A stretch of 64,000 nucleotides of DNA from Actinomyces radicidentis (GTDB lineage: Bacteria > Actinomycetota > Actinomycetes > Actinomycetales > Actinomycetaceae), in contig NZ_CP014228.1 of assembly GCF_001553565.1 (NCBI RefSeq), positions 1,116,001 through 1,180,000 of the forward strand, given 5' to 3'. Made by a program: the position numbers and the translations under genes. Under the pieces are notes generated by a model, which was not told where the DNA came from, made no database searches, and worked only from the letters and a program-made list of their open reading frames with translations. This document shows, piece after piece, positions 47,252-57,566 of this stretch (position 1 is its first letter; every line of letters begins with the position of its first letter).

Positions 47252-47337
47252 GTGGAGCGCGGGCGGGAGCGAGCGCCCGTCGGCCCACCCGGGTGGAACG
47301 CCGGGTGGAACGCGCGCGCCCACCCTCCCGGAGGGGC

Positions 47338-47361
47338 GGGCCCACCATGCATGATGGGCCC
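47338..47361 (+). promoter_or_regulatory. Palindrome over the sdaA start region
   Basis: A 24-bp palindrome, GGGCCCACCATG-CATGATGGGCCC, with 11 of 12 pairs, ends immediately before the sdaA ATG and contains the -10-like CATGAT (47350-47355). It is a candidate operator. Two copies of CGGGTGGAACG lie 30-50 bp upstream. Confidence 0.5.
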
Positions 47362-49095
<1,734 letters not shown>

Positions 49096-49225: not shown

Positions 49226-50875
49226 ATGGCAGAGTCCCAGGCCGAGTCGACGAGCACCGCGTACACCATCACGCAATTGCGTGAACTGGTGTCGAGCGGA
49301 GGGCTGCGCGTCCCCCAGTTCCAGCGCTCCTTCCGCTGGGACGCCAAGGACGTGAGCAGCCTTTTCGACTCCATCGTCAAGGGATACCCCTTCGGCAGCC
49401 TCCTCCTGTGGCAGCGGGAGGCGCCGGAGGATCAGATCACGGTCGGCGCGCTGCGGATCCCGGCGCCGCAGCGCCATGACGCCCTGTGGGTGGTCGACGG
49501 CCAGCAGCGCGTGACCAGCCTCGTCAACGCCGTCGATCCGGTCGGGGCCCGGGACCCGCGCTTCGCCTTGGGCTACTCCCTGCGGCACGACGAGATCGTG
49601 CGCGGATCGGCCCTCAACGACCCCCTCGCCATCCCGCTGCCGGACCTCTACGACTTCTCCCGGGCGTTGGCCTGGCTCAGTGAGAACCCCGAGGCAGCGG
49701 ACAGAGCTGCACAGGTGCAGGAGCTTGCCGGCCGCCTCAACAGGATCACGGTCCCGGCCACGGTGATGAAGAACGCCGACGAGGGCACGCTCCGTGAGGT
49801 CTTCGACCGCATCAACTCTCGCGGCCGGCGCCTCACGGAGGCGGAGATCTTCGACGCCATCCACGGCGGTCCCGGAGCGGGCACGACGGTGGACGGGATC
49901 GCCGAGCGGGTGCAGGCGCAGACCCTCTTCGGTCACGTCGAGGCCAAGACCGTCGTGCAGGCGCTCCTGGTGCGTCGCCACACCGACATCTCCCGGGACG
50001 TCCACGGCGAGTTCAGTGAGAGCCGACGGCGTGCGAGCGACTTCCCCGAGGAGACGGAGGCGGAGGCCTTCGACGCCACGGAACGGGCCCTCGTCGCGGC
50101 GGTGCGCTTCCTCCAGGACGTCTGCGGGATCCCGCACATGACCCTCGTGCCCTTCCGCTTCCAGCTCCTCGTGCTCGTCCGCGTCTTCGCCTTCTTCCCG
50201 GCTCCGCACGACCGCAACGTCGAGCTGCTCAGTCGGTGGGTGTGGCGCACTAGCGCCGGGGCTGGGCGGCTGGGCCTCGCTGGGTCGCAGACGGACCTGC
50301 GTCGACTGGCCGGCTACGTCGTCCCGGACGACGAGTCCGGTTCCGTCCAGCGGCTCGTCCGGGACGCTGCGCTCGACGACGGGCCGGACGTCCCGGATCT
50401 CCGCGTCTTCCGGGCGACGCGTTCCGACTCCAAGATGATCCTCGCCGCCCTGTGGAACCGGGCGCCCGTCGATGCCGTCACCAGCGAGCCGATCAGCCGG
50501 GAGGTGCTCGCGGAGGCTCTGACCGGGGCGTCGACCCCGGCGCCGGTCGTCGCCGATCTCGTCCCTGCGGGTGGCCTGCCGGACGACGCCCCGATCGCGG
50601 CGGCCAAGATGATCTCGATCCGCGAGGGGCGCGATCTCCTCGACGCAATCGACGAGGGCACTGATCTAGCTTCCCTGCTCCTCGATGAGGTCATGGTGGA
50701 GCGCCTGAGGGCTCGCGACGTGTCGGGCTTCCTCGCGCGGAGGGCGAAAGCGCTCACGGTCTACCTCACGGACTTCCTCGATGCACGGACCGCCTGGGCG
50801 CAGGATGACACGCCCCCGCTGGCTGACCTCGTCTTCGACGACGATGACGAGGAGGACGGGCAGGTGGCGCTGTGA
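49226..50875 (+). CDS. DUF262 domain protein paired with HipA
   Basis: 549 residues. DUF262 (ParB/Srx-like nuclease fold) motifs: VPQFQRSFRWDAKDVSSLFD (about 27-46), GYPFGSLLLWQR, WVVDGQQRVTSL with DGQQR at 91-95, and FDRINSRGRRLTEAEIFDA. No C-terminal HNH (DUF1524) motif is seen, unlike GmrSD-type enzymes. DUF262 proteins are frequent in restriction and anti-phage systems. Its stop overlaps the HipA start by four bases, so the two are coupled. CATCAT (49214-49219) lies six bases before ATG 49226. Confidence 0.85.
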   Translation: MAESQAESTSTAYTITQLRELVSSGGLRVPQFQRSFRWDAKDVSSLFDSIVKGYPFGSLLLWQREAPEDQITVGALRIPAPQRHDALWVVDGQQRVTSLVNAVDPVGARDPRFALGYSLRHDEIVRGSALNDPLAIPLPDLYDFSRALAWLSENPEAADRAAQVQELAGRLNRITVPATVMKNADEGTLREVFDRINSRGRRLTEAEIFDAIHGGPGAGTTVDGIAERVQAQTLFGHVEAKTVVQALLVRRHTDISRDVHGEFSESRRRASDFPEETEAEAFDATERALVAAVRFLQDVCGIPHMTLVPFRFQLLVLVRVFAFFPAPHDRNVELLSRWVWRTSAGAGRLGLAGSQTDLRRLAGYVVPDDESGSVQRLVRDAALDDGPDVPDLRVFRATRSDSKMILAALWNRAPVDAVTSEPISREVLAEALTGASTPAPVVADLVPAGGLPDDAPIAAAKMISIREGRDLLDAIDEGTDLASLLLDEVMVERLRARDVSGFLARRAKALTVYLTDFLDARTAWAQDDTPPLADLVFDDDDEEDGQVAL

Positions 50876-52098
50876 CCGAGGCTGTCTACGCGGTGCGTCT
50901 CCACGGCGAGCACGTCGGCGCCATCCAGCAGCGGGACCGCTTCACCGTCTTCGCTTTCGACCCCGACTACTGGGAGCGTCCGGACCGGTGCGTCCTGGGG
51001 CTCTGGTTCGAGGACCACCCCCGGGAGCGCCCGAAGGCCACGAACGCTGTACCCGCCTGGTTCTCGGGCTTGCTCCCTGAGGGCCCCCTCCGTGAGCTGA
51101 TCGCCCGTGAGCAGGGGGTGAGCACCTATCGGGAGATGGAGCTCCTGGCCCGGATCGGCGCGGACCTGCCGGGCGCCGTCACCGTGGTGCCCGATCCTGA
51201 GGCCGGCATCGACGCCGACTTCACGCGGGTGCGCGAGGAGCGCCGGGGTCGGCGGCCCCTCCCGGCCCCCCTGCTGCACCGCGCCTCGCTGGCCGGCATG
51301 GTGATGAAGTACTCCATGAGTATGCGCGGTGGACGCATGGCGGCCCCGGCGCATGACGAGGACGGCGACTGGATCCTCAAGACGCCGGACCCCACCTTCC
51401 CGGCGCTCCCCGAGAACGAGTACACCGTCATGAGCCTCGCGAGGTGGGTCGGTATCGAGGTGCCGGAGACCGTCCTGTGGGAGCGGGACAGCATTGACGA
51501 CCTCGGGGACGGTGCGTGGCGCTCGGCGGAGACGACGGCCTACGCGATCCGTCGCTTCGACCGGTCCCCGGCAGGCAGGATCCACATCGAGGACTTCGCT
51601 CAGGTCCGGGGGACGTCGGGCACGGGCGATGCGAAGTACCGCTCCACGGTGGAGACGGTCGCAGGTATCGCCTACCGCGGCCAGGACAGTGACTCACTGC
51701 GGGAGATGGTGCGCCGGAGCGTCTTCAACCTGCTCGTGGGCAACGGGGACGCGCACCTCAAGAACTGGTCGCTCATCTACGACGACGGGCGTCGAGCGAG
51801 GCTCTCACCCGCCTATGACCTCGTGTGCACCGGGGCGTACGAGGGGCACGTGGAGCTCGCTCTGCCCTTCGGGGGAGCGACGCGCCTCGCCGACGTCACA
51901 CGTGAGTCCTTCGCGAGGCTCGCGGGGCTCCTCCACGTGGGTGAGGCGGAGGTCCTCGACGTCGTCGACGAGACCGTGGAGCGATTCCGCGAGGCGTGGG
52001 CTGAGGGTGCTGTCGGCGATCTTGCCCCCGCTCCGGTCCGCGCATGGATTGATGAGCATCTGGAGGCAACCTCGCTGTGCCTGGCGCGGCGCTCCTGA
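50872..52098 (+). CDS. HipA family serine/threonine kinase toxin
   Basis: 408 residues from GTG overlapping the DUF262 stop (GTGA). HipA layout: N-terminal subdomain with VPAWFSGLLPEGPLRELIAR, kinase core with GDWILKTPDPTFPALPENEY, YAIRRFDR, IHIEDFAQ, the catalytic loop VGNGDAHLKNWSLIYDDG (about 287-304) and the metal site LSPAYDLV. Catalytic residues look intact, so it is probably an active kinase. No HipB-type helix-turn-helix gene is adjacent; its place is taken by the DUF262 gene. Confidence 0.9.
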   Translation: MTEAVYAVRLHGEHVGAIQQRDRFTVFAFDPDYWERPDRCVLGLWFEDHPRERPKATNAVPAWFSGLLPEGPLRELIAREQGVSTYREMELLARIGADLPGAVTVVPDPEAGIDADFTRVREERRGRRPLPAPLLHRASLAGMVMKYSMSMRGGRMAAPAHDEDGDWILKTPDPTFPALPENEYTVMSLARWVGIEVPETVLWERDSIDDLGDGAWRSAETTAYAIRRFDRSPAGRIHIEDFAQVRGTSGTGDAKYRSTVETVAGIAYRGQDSDSLREMVRRSVFNLLVGNGDAHLKNWSLIYDDGRRARLSPAYDLVCTGAYEGHVELALPFGGATRLADVTRESFARLAGLLHVGEAEVLDVVDETVERFREAWAEGAVGDLAPAPVRAWIDEHLEATSLCLARRS

Positions 52099-52126: not shown

Positions 52127-54340
52127 TCACCTTCCAGTGTCGTCCTCATCGTACGGCTCGGGGAGCTCGTCCCGGAGCCACGATGCAATGCCCATCAGGT
52201 TGTCGATGTGCGTCTCATCTAGGATCTGGACGGCTCGACCCACAGCGTCGATGAGCCTCCGCTGCCCCCGCGAGTCGAGAGTGTCAGGCATGGCGAGGCC
52301 GATCCGTCGGGCGCGCTCTCCAGGATTGACGATCGCCCACCACAGGCACAGGTTCGTCACCGAGAGGTCGAGGCCGGCCGCCCGGTGATGGTCAAGCTCG
52401 GTGAACGTGTTGCAGGTGAGGGGCTCCTTGACCACGTCGTAGAGCCAGGCGACGTCGTCAGGGGCCACGATGTGGCTCACGTGGGAGACCCGGAGAACGT
52501 CCGATGTGTGCTCGACCGCGTCAGCGGGGAAAGAGTCACGAAATCGGAGCTCACGATGGATCTGCTTGTAGAAGGGAGCGAGATCTTCTCCCCGCACGGC
52601 CCGCCCGCTCCGTCCGTAGTACAGGAGCATGTGCAGAAGCGCCGTGAGGCTCACTGTGGCAGATGAGGAGTAGCCAAGCAGCTCGGCATGCTCGGCTGGG
52701 GTCAGGATCGGGGTCAGTTGCAGCCTGTGCTGGGCACGCATGCGCACCTCGGCCCTCAGGGAGGGCGTGTCCTGCTGCTCCGCTTCGTCGAGGAGATCAT
52801 GGTCGACGCCCCTCTCCCAACCCATAAGATCGCGCACCGTGCTGAGCGGCAGGGTCTCATCCCCGGCGCGGTTGGTGATGGTCGCGCTCAACAGGGCTTC
52901 GATGATGATCGAGCGAGCGGTCGCAGCGGTGCGGTCGTGCAGCATGCCCCAGGGAGAGTCGCCGTGAGGGAATGTCTCACTGATGAAGCGAGAATTGAGA
53001 ATCGCCTTGACCTGGGCCGAAGTGAGGCGGCACGGGTGTCCGGTGATCTGCTTGGCGAGCTCGCGGTATGCGGCGAGGGGAACGCGTTCGAGATACCTGC
53101 TCTCGTCCGCCTCCGCTCGACGTGTGAGGCTGCGGGATGAAGACCACGGGTCGTCGTCCTTCAGGGTGAGAAGGCCTGAGAATTCATCCGCGCGGACACG
53201 TGGAGCCTTGTCGGACGTGGTGGTCCGTCCCATCATCGGTTCAGTGAGTGCGGCGTCCGCCTCGAGCAGGTCTCGTATGAGGGCGTCGGCGTCCTGGACG
53301 TCTTGAAGGACCCGGTGGAGAAGGGAGGACCTTGTTGGTCCGGGCAGATCGGCGTCGGTTGCTGCGCGGATCAGCGTGTCGCGTCGACCGTCAAGAATGC
53401 CGTTCAGTACAGCGGGGCTGGGTAGCCGAAGGGAGCGGATGAACCGACTCCGGGGGTGCCGGGAGGTCTTGACAACTCGGTCACACGCATCATGAAAGTC
53501 CAACCACCGGAATTGTGAATTGATGGTGATCGCGAGGAGCTTGCGTTGCTCGTCCTGGTCTTCTGCTCGCCTAATCAGTTCAACGATCTGGACGGTTTGG
53601 TGGCCGGACGCTTCAGAAGCGTCGTGATGGTTTCTGCGCCGCAGGAGCTCCGCATGCCCGGCCCGATAGGATCTTTGCCTATCCCAAGCGATGTCTGCTC
53701 TCGGATAACTGCTCGAACGCACTCGTCTGGCGGATAGATAAAGGATGGTGAGGACATTGAGGGTGAGGGTGGCGGCGACTACGGCAAAGGAGGCCGACCA
53801 TCTGGCGACGATGAGTCTTACGGCAAACTTGTTGACCTCTCGGTGCGACATGTATTGGCTGGCAAAGGGTGCGACGACGACCCATGCAACGGCGAGTTGG
53901 AAGATCCATGTGGACAGAATTGCCGCTGCCATCGTCCAGGAATACGAGGCGGTGTGGATGTTCTTCCCCATGTAAATGGGACCCGAATGCTGGTCGCGAG
54001 CGATGGCGGACATTGCGGTCGCCGAGAACGTGAGGAGGGTGACTAGGCCGACCGCGCCCTTGAGCATCATGCTGACTGGGGGGTTCGCGAGCGCATTGCC
54101 GCTAGTCACTATCGACCACGGCCAGAGTTGATCTCTGCTCATGGGGACCGCGGTGAGGCATGCCGTGATGGCGAGTACTAGGAACGTTGGGTATGAGGTC
54201 AATGATCTCTGGATGTGGTAGCTTCTTCGATCCCAGCGGTCGCGTAGTTCTCGGTACTGGACGTACAGCCAGTTGCCTTGCGACATACTGATCATCAAGA
54301 TTACGAGAAGTGCGACGATGGGCCAGGGAATGCCGCTCAT
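52127..54340 (-). CDS. Unknown membrane protein with large cytoplasmic domain
   Basis: 737 residues, not recognised. The N-terminal 205 residues hold about five membrane segments (IVALLVILMISMSQGNWLYV, TFLVLAITACLTAVPM, GAVGLVTLLTFSATAMSAIA, AAILSTWIFQLAVAWVVVAP, SFAVVAATLTLNVLTILYLS). The remaining 530 residues are soluble, helical, and rich in R, D, E and H, with no motif I can name. Base composition and codon use are visibly less G+C-rich than the neighbours, suggesting transfer. Convergent with hipA, 28 bp apart. TAGGCT (54348-54353, minus strand) lies seven bases before the ATG. Confidence 0.75.
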   Translation of the reverse strand: MSGIPWPIVALLVILMISMSQGNWLYVQYRELRDRWDRRSYHIQRSLTSYPTFLVLAITACLTAVPMSRDQLWPWSIVTSGNALANPPVSMMLKGAVGLVTLLTFSATAMSAIARDQHSGPIYMGKNIHTASYSWTMAAAILSTWIFQLAVAWVVVAPFASQYMSHREVNKFAVRLIVARWSASFAVVAATLTLNVLTILYLSARRVRSSSYPRADIAWDRQRSYRAGHAELLRRRNHHDASEASGHQTVQIVELIRRAEDQDEQRKLLAITINSQFRWLDFHDACDRVVKTSRHPRSRFIRSLRLPSPAVLNGILDGRRDTLIRAATDADLPGPTRSSLLHRVLQDVQDADALIRDLLEADAALTEPMMGRTTTSDKAPRVRADEFSGLLTLKDDDPWSSSRSLTRRAEADESRYLERVPLAAYRELAKQITGHPCRLTSAQVKAILNSRFISETFPHGDSPWGMLHDRTAATARSIIIEALLSATITNRAGDETLPLSTVRDLMGWERGVDHDLLDEAEQQDTPSLRAEVRMRAQHRLQLTPILTPAEHAELLGYSSSATVSLTALLHMLLYYGRSGRAVRGEDLAPFYKQIHRELRFRDSFPADAVEHTSDVLRVSHVSHIVAPDDVAWLYDVVKEPLTCNTFTELDHHRAAGLDLSVTNLCLWWAIVNPGERARRIGLAMPDTLDSRGQRRLIDAVGRAVQILDETHIDNLMGIASWLRDELPEPYDEDDTGR

Positions 54341-54991: not shown

Positions 54992-55252
54992 TCACTCGTA
55001 GTGGTACCGGCACGAGGCAATGAGGACGTCGCCGTTGTCAGCGATGCGGTAGACGAGGCGGTGCTCGTCGGTGATGCGCCGTGACCAGTACCCGGAGAGC
55101 TGGAAGCGCAGCGGCTCGGGCGTGCCGATACCCTCGTGGCCGCCGCGCTGGACGTCGCGCAGGAGGCGGTTGATCCGCTTGACGACGCTGCGGTCCGAGG
55201 ACTGCCACCACAGGTAGTCCTCCCAGGCGTCGTCGTCCCAGACGAGCGACAT
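54992..55252 (-). CDS. yoeB: YoeB/RelE family mRNA interferase toxin
   Basis: Ribosome-dependent endoribonuclease. 86 residues, the full YoeB length: SLVWDDDAWEDYLWWQSSDR, then NRLLRDVQRGGHEGIGTPEP, LSGYWSRRITDEHRLVYRI, ending in the catalytic CRYHYE. It begins one base after the antitoxin stop. Confidence 0.93.
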   Translation of the reverse strand: MSLVWDDDAWEDYLWWQSSDRSVVKRINRLLRDVQRGGHEGIGTPEPLRFQLSGYWSRRITDEHRLVYRIADNGDVLIASCRYHYE

Positions 55253-55661: not shown

Positions 55662-57566
55662 GTGACTGAGCAGACCCGCCTCGAGACGGCCCACCCCGAA
55701 GCCGATCCCCAGCAGACACCCGAGCAGGCCCCCGCCGCCGCCCGCGACGAGCGCGCGTGGTGGAAGGACGCCGTCGTCTACCAGGTCTACCCGCGCTCCT
55801 TCGCGGACTCCGACGGCAACGGCGTCGGCGACCTCAAGGGCGTCACCTCCCGCGTCCCCTACCTCAAGGCCCTCGGCGTCGACGCCGTCTGGCTCTCGCC
55901 CTTCTACCCCTCCGCGCTCGCGGACGGCGGCTACGACGTCGATGACTACCGCGACGTCGCCCCCGAGATCGGCACCCTCGAGGACTTCGACAAGATGTCC
56001 GCCGCCCTCCACGACGCCGGTATCCGCCTCATGGTGGACCTCGTCCCCAACCACTCCTCCAACCGCCACCGCTGGTTCCGCGCCGCCATGGCCGGCGGCC
56101 CCGACGCCCCCGAGCGCGCGCTCTACCACGTGCGCGAGGGCCGCGGCGAGCACGGCGAGGAGCCGCCCAGCGACTGGCGCTCCATGTTCGGCGGCTCCAT
56201 CTGGGAGCGCATCGACGACGTCGACGACGCCGGCCGCCCCCTCACGGGCCCCGGCACCGGCCGTCCCTACCAGTGGTACCTCCACGTCTTCGCCCCCGAG
56301 CAGCCGGACCTGAACTGGGACAACCCGGCGGTGCGCGAGGACTTCAAGGAGACACTGCGCTTCTGGTGCGACCGTGGCGTGGACGGCTTCCGCGTCGACG
56401 TCGCCCCCGGCATGGCCAAGGACATCTCCGACCTCGACCGCCCCTGGTCCGAGATCCCGTGGTGGCCGCTGCCCGAGGACGGCTCCCACCCCATGTTCGA
56501 CCGCAACGAGGTCCACGACATCTACCGCGAGTGGCGCGAGGTCCTCGACTCCTACGACCCGCCCCGCTTCGCCGTCGCCGAGGCCGGGGTCCCCGCCGCC
56601 CGCCGCCCCCTCTACGCGGCCAGCGCCGGCCAGGCCTTCAACTTCCAGATGCAGGACGCCGACTTCACCGCCGCCTCCTTCGCCTGGGCGATCGACGCCG
56701 GGCTCGCCGACGAGGCTGCGTCCGGCTCGACCACCTGGGTCCTGGGCTGCCACGACGTCTTCCGCGTCGCCTCCCGCTACGCCTTCGACATGGACACGGC
56801 CCTCGCCGAGGCCGCCGCCGAGCACGAGCGCGAGCGCCGCGCCCGTGACGGCGGCGAGGAGCTCGACCAGGCGCACGACGCCGTCGCCGAGGACGACGCC
56901 TACCCCGCCGGCCACCAGCTCCTCACCACCCGCCGCTGGGTGCTGGCCGACGGAGCCGAGCCGACGCCCGACCCGGTCGCCGGCGAGCGCCGCGCCCGTG
57001 CGGGGGCGCTCGTCATCATGGCCCTGCCGGGCGCCATGTACGTCTTCCAGGGCGACGAGCTCGGTCTGCCGGAGGTGCCCGACACCCCCGAGGACCGGCT
57101 CCAGGACCCCATCGCCTTCCGTAACCGCGCCGTCGAGAAGGGCCGCGACGGCTGCCGCGTCCCGCTTCCCTGGACCGAGTCCGGCTCCAGCCACGGCTTC
57201 GGGCCCGACGGCGGCGCCGAGCCCCACCTGCCCCAGCCTGCCGGCTGGGGATCGCACGCCGTCGACGTCGAGGCCGCCGACCCGGAGTCGACCCTCTCGC
57301 TCTACAGGGAGGGCCTGCGCCTGCGCCGCGAGCTGTGGGGAGCCTCGAACCGAGGTGAGCTCACCTGGCTGCAGCGCGACGAGCAGGTCCTCGCCTTCGA
57401 GCGCGGCGGCCTCCAGTGCTGGACCGCCTTCGGTGCCGACGTCGAGCTGCCCGCCGGTGAGGTGCTGCTCTCCAGCGCCCCGGTCGGCGCGATCGAGGCC
57501 GACGACGGCACCGCCGTGAGCGTCCTTCCCGCCGACGCGACCGCCTGGCTCCGCCCCGCCCGCTGA
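55662..57566 (+). CDS. GH13 alpha-glucosidase
   Basis: 634 residues, GTG start. Oligo-alpha-glucosidase-type barrel: VVYQVYPRSFADSDGNGVGD, VDAVWLSPFYPSALADGGYD, VDLVPNHSS, nucleophile in GVDGFRVDVAPG (D246), acid in FAVAEAG (E307), and GCHDVFRVASRY (H364-D365). It releases glucose from maltose, isomaltose or sucrose-like substrates in the cytoplasm. An acidic/Arg-rich insertion (HERERRARDGGEELDQAHDA) lies near residue 390. GAGGAT lies seven bases before the start. Confidence 0.9.
   Translation: MTEQTRLETAHPEADPQQTPEQAPAAARDERAWWKDAVVYQVYPRSFADSDGNGVGDLKGVTSRVPYLKALGVDAVWLSPFYPSALADGGYDVDDYRDVAPEIGTLEDFDKMSAALHDAGIRLMVDLVPNHSSNRHRWFRAAMAGGPDAPERALYHVREGRGEHGEEPPSDWRSMFGGSIWERIDDVDDAGRPLTGPGTGRPYQWYLHVFAPEQPDLNWDNPAVREDFKETLRFWCDRGVDGFRVDVAPGMAKDISDLDRPWSEIPWWPLPEDGSHPMFDRNEVHDIYREWREVLDSYDPPRFAVAEAGVPAARRPLYAASAGQAFNFQMQDADFTAASFAWAIDAGLADEAASGSTTWVLGCHDVFRVASRYAFDMDTALAEAAAEHERERRARDGGEELDQAHDAVAEDDAYPAGHQLLTTRRWVLADGAEPTPDPVAGERRARAGALVIMALPGAMYVFQGDELGLPEVPDTPEDRLQDPIAFRNRAVEKGRDGCRVPLPWTESGSSHGFGPDGGAEPHLPQPAGWGSHAVDVEAADPESTLSLYREGLRLRRELWGASNRGELTWLQRDEQVLAFERGGLQCWTAFGADVELPAGEVLLSSAPVGAIEADDGTAVSVLPADATAWLRPAR

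Follow-up and report, generated by a model that had tools for sequence, protein, structure and literature searches.

A conserved DUF262-HipA gene pair in Actinomyces radicidentis as a candidate sensor-effector module

Introduction

What is the role of a HipA-family kinase gene that follows a DUF262 gene and has no gene for the antitoxin HipB beside it? We addressed this question at a locus of Actinomyces radicidentis, in a window of 64,000 nucleotides (the whole stretch of DNA analysed; assembly GCF_001553565.1, contig NZ_CP014228.1, positions 1116001-1180000 of the 3.05 Mb single-contig genome). A first-pass annotation, made from the letters of the window, had described the two genes as coupled and suggested that a nucleotide-sensing DUF262 protein, controlling a kinase or modified by it, would be a new defence design. 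In our overall reading, to which we give an even chance, the pair is a conserved and mobile module of two genes, a sensor and an effector, that would act by kinase-driven growth arrest.

The two genes and their junction

Elements of the locus are listed in Table 1. Its sequence identifies the product of the first gene as a full-length relative of the type IV restriction proteins GmrSD and BrxU, in which the motif for binding nucleoside triphosphates (NTPs) is intact and the HNH nuclease site appears degenerate. GmrSD_N is the only Pfam family that reached the cut-off in this protein. The best PADLOC model for it is a component of PDC-M55 (E = 5.6e-48). A profile of its family matches DUF262 proteins in the PDB, SspE among them; the best match is 7p9k (DUF262 domain-containing protein, E = 1.2e-16), which we take to be BrxU.

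The partner is a HipA-family kinase: the HipA_C fold, the catalytic Asp, the Mg-binding Asp and the ATP Lys are present, and by alignment all catalytic residues are retained. S139 is the counterpart of E. coli S150 in an alignment with E. coli HipA. Among 33 aligned paired HipAs, residues K170, D293, H295, K297, N298 and D316 are conserved throughout, and S139 in 32. The AlphaFold2 model of the protein has a mean pLDDT of 89.9 and a pTM of 0.89.

Three claims of the first-pass annotation were confirmed: the kinase gene starts within the DUF262 stop codon, GTG and TGA having GTGA in common; the catalytic loop is intact (K170, D293-A-H-L-K-N298, D316); and the partner carries DGQQR. The overlap of stop and start suggests translational coupling. 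Upstream, 130 bases separate the stop of the preceding gene (49095) from the DUF262 start. No convincing gene was found in this gap, where the largest open reading frame (ORF; 76 amino acids, aa) runs out of frame into DUF262 and coding-like composition is confined to one 54-aa ORF on the opposite strand; Pfam was not applied to these gap ORFs. The gene downstream of HipA lies on the opposite strand, and a scan for promoters and terminators gave no match. No helix-turn-helix (HTH) antitoxin of the HipB kind adjoins the kinase gene at the locus, the upstream partner being the DUF262 protein.

Table 1. Features of the DUF262-HipA locus and its flanks (positions within the window; GC3, GC content at third codon positions)
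Feature	Position	Strand	Remarks
Left flank of insertion site, serine-dehydratase-like gene	47293..49095	+	named by eye
DUF262 (GmrSD_N-type) gene, first of pair	49226..50875	+	549 aa; ATG 49226; TGA 50873-50875; intact ORF; GC3 0.90
GmrSD_N / ParB-Srx-like NTP-binding domain, residues 20-212	49283..49861	+	Pfam PF03235, E = 1.5e-26
DGQQR motif, DUF262 residues 91-95	49496..49510	+	kept in 37/38 family members; DGQKR in the remaining one
Putative vestigial HNH (DUF1524-like) core, DUF262 residues ~436-466	50531..50623	+	skeleton partly retained, catalytic His gone
GTGA, HipA start overlapping DUF262 stop	50872..50875	+	4 bases common to GTG and TGA
HipA-family Ser/Thr kinase gene, second of pair	50872..52098	+	408 aa; GTG start; Pfam PF13657 + PF07804
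HipA N-subdomain (HipS-like, Couple_hipA)	50890..51186	+	Pfam E = 1.2e-20
HipA_C kinase core	51286..51999	+	S139, K170, D293/H295/K297/N298, D316; Pfam E = 1.3e-45
Right flank of insertion site, glycosidase-like gene	55662..57566	+	named by eye

Conservation of the pairing

In a sample of 396 genomes of the order, a DUF262 match at E <= 1e-20 was found in 17, the source genome included. In all 11 near-full-length relatives the next gene downstream, on the same strand, is HipA, with an internal stop in one (L005), and none of the 5 weaker relatives has HipA beside it in the DNA read. The four-base overlap recurs in 10 of the 11, three of which have an alternative start nearby, and in the eleventh (L013) the genes overlap by 8 or 14 bases. 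Spacing is looser in distant pairs: counted from the last base of the DUF262 stop, their best HipA start falls between 17 bases upstream and 46 downstream.

Scanning of named genomes confirmed at least 151 DUF262 stretches, from which 79 loci were kept. Downstream HipA is present in 26 of the best 29 of these (L021-L049; frames broken in L033 and L046), or in 25 of 28 when L023, apparently the same locus as L010, is set aside. The exceptions are L027, with a decayed piece of HipA, and L028 and L031, with none; transposase-like ORFs were seen by eye in L031 where HipA would be expected. Among the remaining 50 loci HipA occurs only at L055, where DUF262 is fragmentary. The other 49 are without HipA, and in 3 of them a repeat search found no DUF262 either. 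The 26 paired loci span six phyla: Actinomycetota and Pseudomonadota, together with Thermomicrobiota, Acidobacteriota, Myxococcota and Planctomycetota, these last four represented solely by contigs of metagenome-assembled genomes (MAGs). A second sample of 396 genomes, drawn from the whole phylum Actinomycetota, gave 8 DUF262 profile matches at E <= 1e-40; the four scoring at least 530 bits have HipA, and the four at 263 bits or less do not. The pair is also carried by a conjugative Azospirillum plasmid, where it is annotated as a DUF262 protein and a HipA family toxin. No fusion of the two genes was found among the pairs mapped. The neighbourhood survey proposed in the first-pass annotation thus bears out the pairing well beyond the source strain (11/11 order relatives, 26 of the best 29 of 79 loci), against the first of the refuting conditions named there, and DUF262-HipA is almost certainly a conserved module.

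Phylogeny of the two partners

The 49 DUF262 proteins of a careful tree fall on two sides of a branch supported at 100/100: on one are the 38 family members (36 that adjoin a HipA and 2 that do not), on the other 8 HNH-bearing relatives and 3 PDC-M55 proteins. A quick tree of 57 DUF262 rows agrees. Distances between DUF262 proteins correlate with those between their HipAs (33 pairs, r = 0.876, 0 of 2000 permutations as high), in a Mantel test that takes no account of shared species history.

The boundary of the family is less sharp on the kinase side. HipA scores in the Actinomycetota sample are at least 392 bits for paired HipAs and at most 200 for others. This sharply two-peaked distribution was dropped as a family boundary: the sample held Actinomycetota alone, and the gap is not general, since HTH-paired HipAs of alphaproteobacterial plasmids score about 420 bits, within the range of the paired ones. 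On whether the HTH-paired HipAs are sister to the DUF262-paired ones or nested in them, the quick tree gives a support of 84, and the careful tree is undecided, with 2 changes. From these trees, DUF262 can firmly be taken as a single clade, but HipA cannot.

The degenerate HNH region

The first-pass annotation held that the DUF262 protein lacks an HNH domain. A region colinear with that domain is present, and it is the catalytic residues that are lost. In a profile alignment with HNH-bearing DUF262 relatives, the family is covered over positions 14-522 (E = 2.9e-63). In these relatives the HNH region has a pattern of the kind HHIFP...N...N, which can be compared to the DHIYP motif reported in BrxU (PMC8565348). 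The second, catalytic His is present in 0 of the 38 family members and the scaffold Asn in 30. Of 43 family loci, 4 show a loose HH..P pattern, none of them at the HNH position; in L009 and L028 it lies plainly elsewhere in the protein. Because the catalytic His is absent across the family, its HNH is very probably dead. With regard to type IV restriction enzymes of the GmrSD/BrxU kind, the protein has the DGQQR-bearing domain and lacks the HNH (DUF1524) active site. The domain name itself rests on the alignment, since Pfam GmrSD_C gave a sub-threshold match in one HNH relative only.

The 12 HNH relatives aligned against the family were chosen for showing the motif. The unselected count, among the 31 relatives outside the family scoring at least 100 bits, is 20 with HH..P in the second half of the protein and 11 without. 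Three of these 11 (L050, L069 and L134) are of the PDC-M55 type: all three components of that system (A, B and C) have matches at L050 and L134, and B, the sole component scanned there, has one at L069. The other 8 of the 11, also without HipA in the DNA read, are L017, L020, L052, L056, L059, L060, L063 and L064. As far as alignments tell, HNH loss is common to several DUF262 lineages.

Gain and loss among congeners

Among 49 congeners, DUF262 is present in 19, HipA in 22 and both in 18 (broken HipAs counted). DUF262 is accompanied by an N-terminal piece of HipA in G800 and by a HipA with an internal stop in G151, G797 and G785, while G801 has a frameshifted HipA without DUF262. In three congeners (G794, G807 and G823) HipA is intact, its catalytic residues kept, and DUF262 has no match anywhere in the genome. 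For two of these solo HipAs, L192 (7797-9017) and L193 (7679-8896), dN is 0.178 and dS 0.494 (dN/dS ~0.36); part of this constraint would predate the loss of DUF262, if it was lost separately in each. Neither retains the Ser that corresponds to E. coli S150.

The insertion site was followed through its flanking genes. Of 20 regions beside the left-flank gene, 5 have the pair, 3 have HipA without DUF262 and 12 have neither; 9 of the 20 also showed the right-flank gene. In G788, G798 and G804, which have no insert there (G804 has the pair elsewhere), the distance between the flank matches is about 108, 75 and 268 bp, respectively, and in G795 the gap between them is filled by the pair alone. These empty sites, the pair-only site and the solo genes indicate that the unit consists of two genes, gained and lost jointly or singly. 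Sequence comparison shows that the two genes can be gained or lost as a unit at one chromosomal site. Linkage of the insertion to tRNA genes was rejected, with one tRNA in 29 loci.

HipB and other HipA genes

The source genome contains two further HipA_C genes. One of them (L003) directly follows the gene of an HTH protein and belongs to a normal hipBA pair. The other (L002, 2823418-2827113 of the source genome) is a HipA-family gene, whose one scanned neighbour is not an HTH protein. The claim that HipA stands here without HipB therefore holds for adjacent genes and not for the genome as a whole, and L003 leaves room for neutralisation of HipA by a HipB from elsewhere, which the first-pass annotation had named as a refutation. 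The other genomes speak otherwise: 4 of the 7 other pair-bearing genomes (two of the 4 being MAGs) gave no HipA_C gene besides the paired HipA.

When plasmids were searched with HipA, 690 records matched; Sinorhizobium and Microvirga plasmids ranked highest, at 40-41% identity. In two annotated records an HTH protein lies immediately upstream of HipA with an 8-base overlap, and in an unannotated Microvirga record an HTH-like ORF was seen upstream by eye. Beside the closest non-family HipAs this position is taken by an HTH protein, so DUF262 occupies the slot of HipB. The alphaproteobacterial plasmid HipA group (L286 2903-4709, L288 2903-4715, and L287) has an upstream HTH protein of about 200 aa, and in its annotated records replication or transfer genes adjoin.

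Genomic neighbourhood

Around 26 chosen loci, 168 genes of at most 900 aa were called no more than 4 kb from the pair (L048 gave none); 146 were used, 21 short genes and one long gene being left out. The control consisted of 129 genes from the middles of 20 regions, set at round coordinates across 12 genomes of Actinomycetota, and so covers one phylum where the neighbour set covers several. The 25 control matches listed are mostly type I restriction-modification and BREX components.

In the window, a YoeB-type toxin gene (54992-55252, minus strand; Pfam YoeB_toxin, E = 1.3e-34) lies about 2.9 kb from the pair. The end of a YefM-like ORF, recognised by eye, adjoins it, and G792 and G801 likewise have YoeB matches close to this site. 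Between the pair and this gene, positions 52127-54340 (minus strand) encode a 737-aa protein with a GC3 of 0.74, lower than most neighbours. No Pfam family matches it above the cut-off, and at the limits applied NCBIfam, PADLOC and PHROGs gave no match either; by eye its start is membrane-like, and it is perhaps a recent arrival.

Proposed mechanism and alternatives

DUF262 probably regulates HipA. We propose that it replaces HipB and binds the kinase. A cue from foreign DNA, such as modified DNA in SspE, GmrSD and BrxU, would lead to NTP binding or hydrolysis by DUF262 and switch the kinase on. HipA would then phosphorylate an essential host protein, and growth would stop in an abortive infection. 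For SspE, modified DNA triggers the NTPase activity of DUF262, by which the nuclease domain is activated (PMC10952713), and HipA and HipT phosphorylate aminoacyl-tRNA synthetases (PMC8262856). More specifically, and with somewhat less than even confidence, we regard the pair as a type IV restriction enzyme minus its nuclease, which would recognise modified or otherwise foreign DNA in an NTP-driven way and thereby switch on a HipA kinase; this would be a new class of immune switch and a Hip organisation additional to the ten surveyed. Defence as the purpose of the pair is plausible, with the odds evenly balanced.

Several observations weigh against this proposal. Defence-island enrichment was absent: at E <= 1e-20 the 146 neighbours match 9 PADLOC families and the 129 control genes 68, so that a defence role is not borne out by location. 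HipA was absent from 45 viral-contig loci, and 7 phage records match DUF262, none covering 80% of it (HipA was not searched there); on these results a viral origin of the pair was rejected. HNH loss is not special to partnership with HipA, because 11 of the 31 relatives outside the family have lost the motif too and none of these 11 has HipA in the DNA read; the vestigial HNH fold is itself predicted from alignment. Three congeners keep an intact HipA alone, so DUF262 is not always needed, and the Mantel correlation is open to the effect of species history. Phage protection, binding of DUF262 to HipA and toxicity of HipA are likewise predictions from sequence.

The strongest alternative, which we nevertheless consider rather unlikely, is a classical toxin-antitoxin pair, with HipA as a constitutive growth-arrest toxin and DUF262 as the antitoxin in the HipB slot, serving maintenance or persistence and not antiviral sensing. 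DUF262 is indeed upstream and overlapping like HipB, in the place that an HTH partner takes beside the closest non-family HipAs; HipA is broken in 4 of 19 DUF262-bearing congeners, which would fit a toxin that carries the cost of the pair; and the pair occurs on a conjugative plasmid. A strict pair of this kind is disfavoured by the intact solo HipAs in 3 of 49 congeners and by the constraint between two of them. Moreover, usual antitoxins are much smaller than 549 aa, and an NTPase-type partner of this size far exceeds them. The persistence of intact HipA without DUF262 favours DUF262 as an activator or licenser over a simple antitoxin.

The roles could also be reversed, HipA phosphorylating and controlling DUF262 as an effector with NTPase and perhaps DNA-binding activity. 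Conserved pairing and the near-universal DGQQR agree with this, but loss of the nuclease His in all 38 members leaves no effector activity evident, and HipA survives alone intact, which makes the reversal improbable. Slightly less probable still is regulation of a housekeeping function, such as neighbouring metabolic genes. The same metabolic gene adjoins the pair in several congeners and neighbours elsewhere show no defence-gene enrichment; against it, the pair is patchy in the genus (19/49), insert-free sites exist and neighbours vary among the loci read by ORF. Chance neighbourhood or annotation noise can be dismissed, nothing having been found in its favour, since the genes co-occur in the same order in 11/11, 26/29 and 18/19 cases (broken HipAs counted), with a single DUF262 clade and co-divergence of the two partners.

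If the proposed sensor-effector module is real, a restriction-enzyme scaffold has been repurposed as a signalling sensor, HipA kinases gain another type of partner, and invading DNA is answered by phosphorylation-based growth arrest and not by DNA cleavage. The natural losses of either half among congeners offer a clean genetic system for HipA control without HipB.

Comparison with known systems

No paper describing DUF262-HipA was found in the literature searched, which covered few subscription papers and no bioRxiv preprints; the one paper found to name both, PMC11980606, mentions HipA solely among its references. The HipA system of DefensePredictor has a different partner. HipAD/DS-6 likewise consists of two genes, a HipA-family kinase and a partner other than HipB, but the partner is a DUF3037/DUF1829 protein; the system is antiphage, and mutation of a predicted catalytic residue abolishes defence (PMC13092281; also PMC12548924). 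The novelty seen in a HipA without HipB was by itself overstated, as HipAD/DS-6 already pairs the kinase with a non-HipB protein. PADLOC matches of our HipA are limited to PDC-M03A models, which at a guess we take to be the HipAD kinase, and are weak, covering the C-terminal part (best E = 1.5e-6). With hipBA and hipBST the pair shares the kinase superfamily and motifs and an upstream, overlapping partner gene, but the partner is an HTH protein there and not here. Ten Hip organisations were surveyed by Gerdes in 2021, with no DUF262 among those named in the accessible part of that survey (PMC8262856).

On the DUF262 side, GmrSD, BrxU and SspE have DGQQR in common with our protein, whose C-terminus is colinear with HNH-bearing relatives; the difference is the catalytic HNH His, lost in all members here. 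The PADLOC NsnA model, presumably the DUF262 protein of Menshen, matches ours weakly (E = 8.8e-10). Menshen, an antiphage system, also combines DUF262 (without DUF1524) with a separate effector, of another type, an OLD-like nuclease (PMC10952713). In the predicted system ptuXYZ an HNH-less DUF262 protein adjoins a toxin-fold effector as here, but there are three genes, with a PtuA-like ATPase and a YoeB-like RNase as the toxin, and the HNH domain is described as entirely absent (PMC11980606).

PDC-M55 (ATPase, M55B and DUF262) is the closest PADLOC model and has also lost the HNH residues, but its partners are an ATPase and M55B, with no kinase. The M55C-type model scores 161.9 bits against our DUF262 protein and 441.4 and 430.7 against L050 and L134. 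Identity of the locus with PDC-M55 was rejected, the M55A ATPase model PDLC04707 having no match in the genome (E <= 0.001). An apparent PDC-M55 operon (AAA ATPase, hypothetical protein, DUF262, by annotation) was seen on the mobilizable Paracoccus yeei plasmid pYEE5 (L239). Because the motif-less L050 and L134 match all three PDC-M55 components, related DUF262 proteins serve different effectors, and, if our reading holds, nuclease, ATPase system and kinase would be interchangeable on them.

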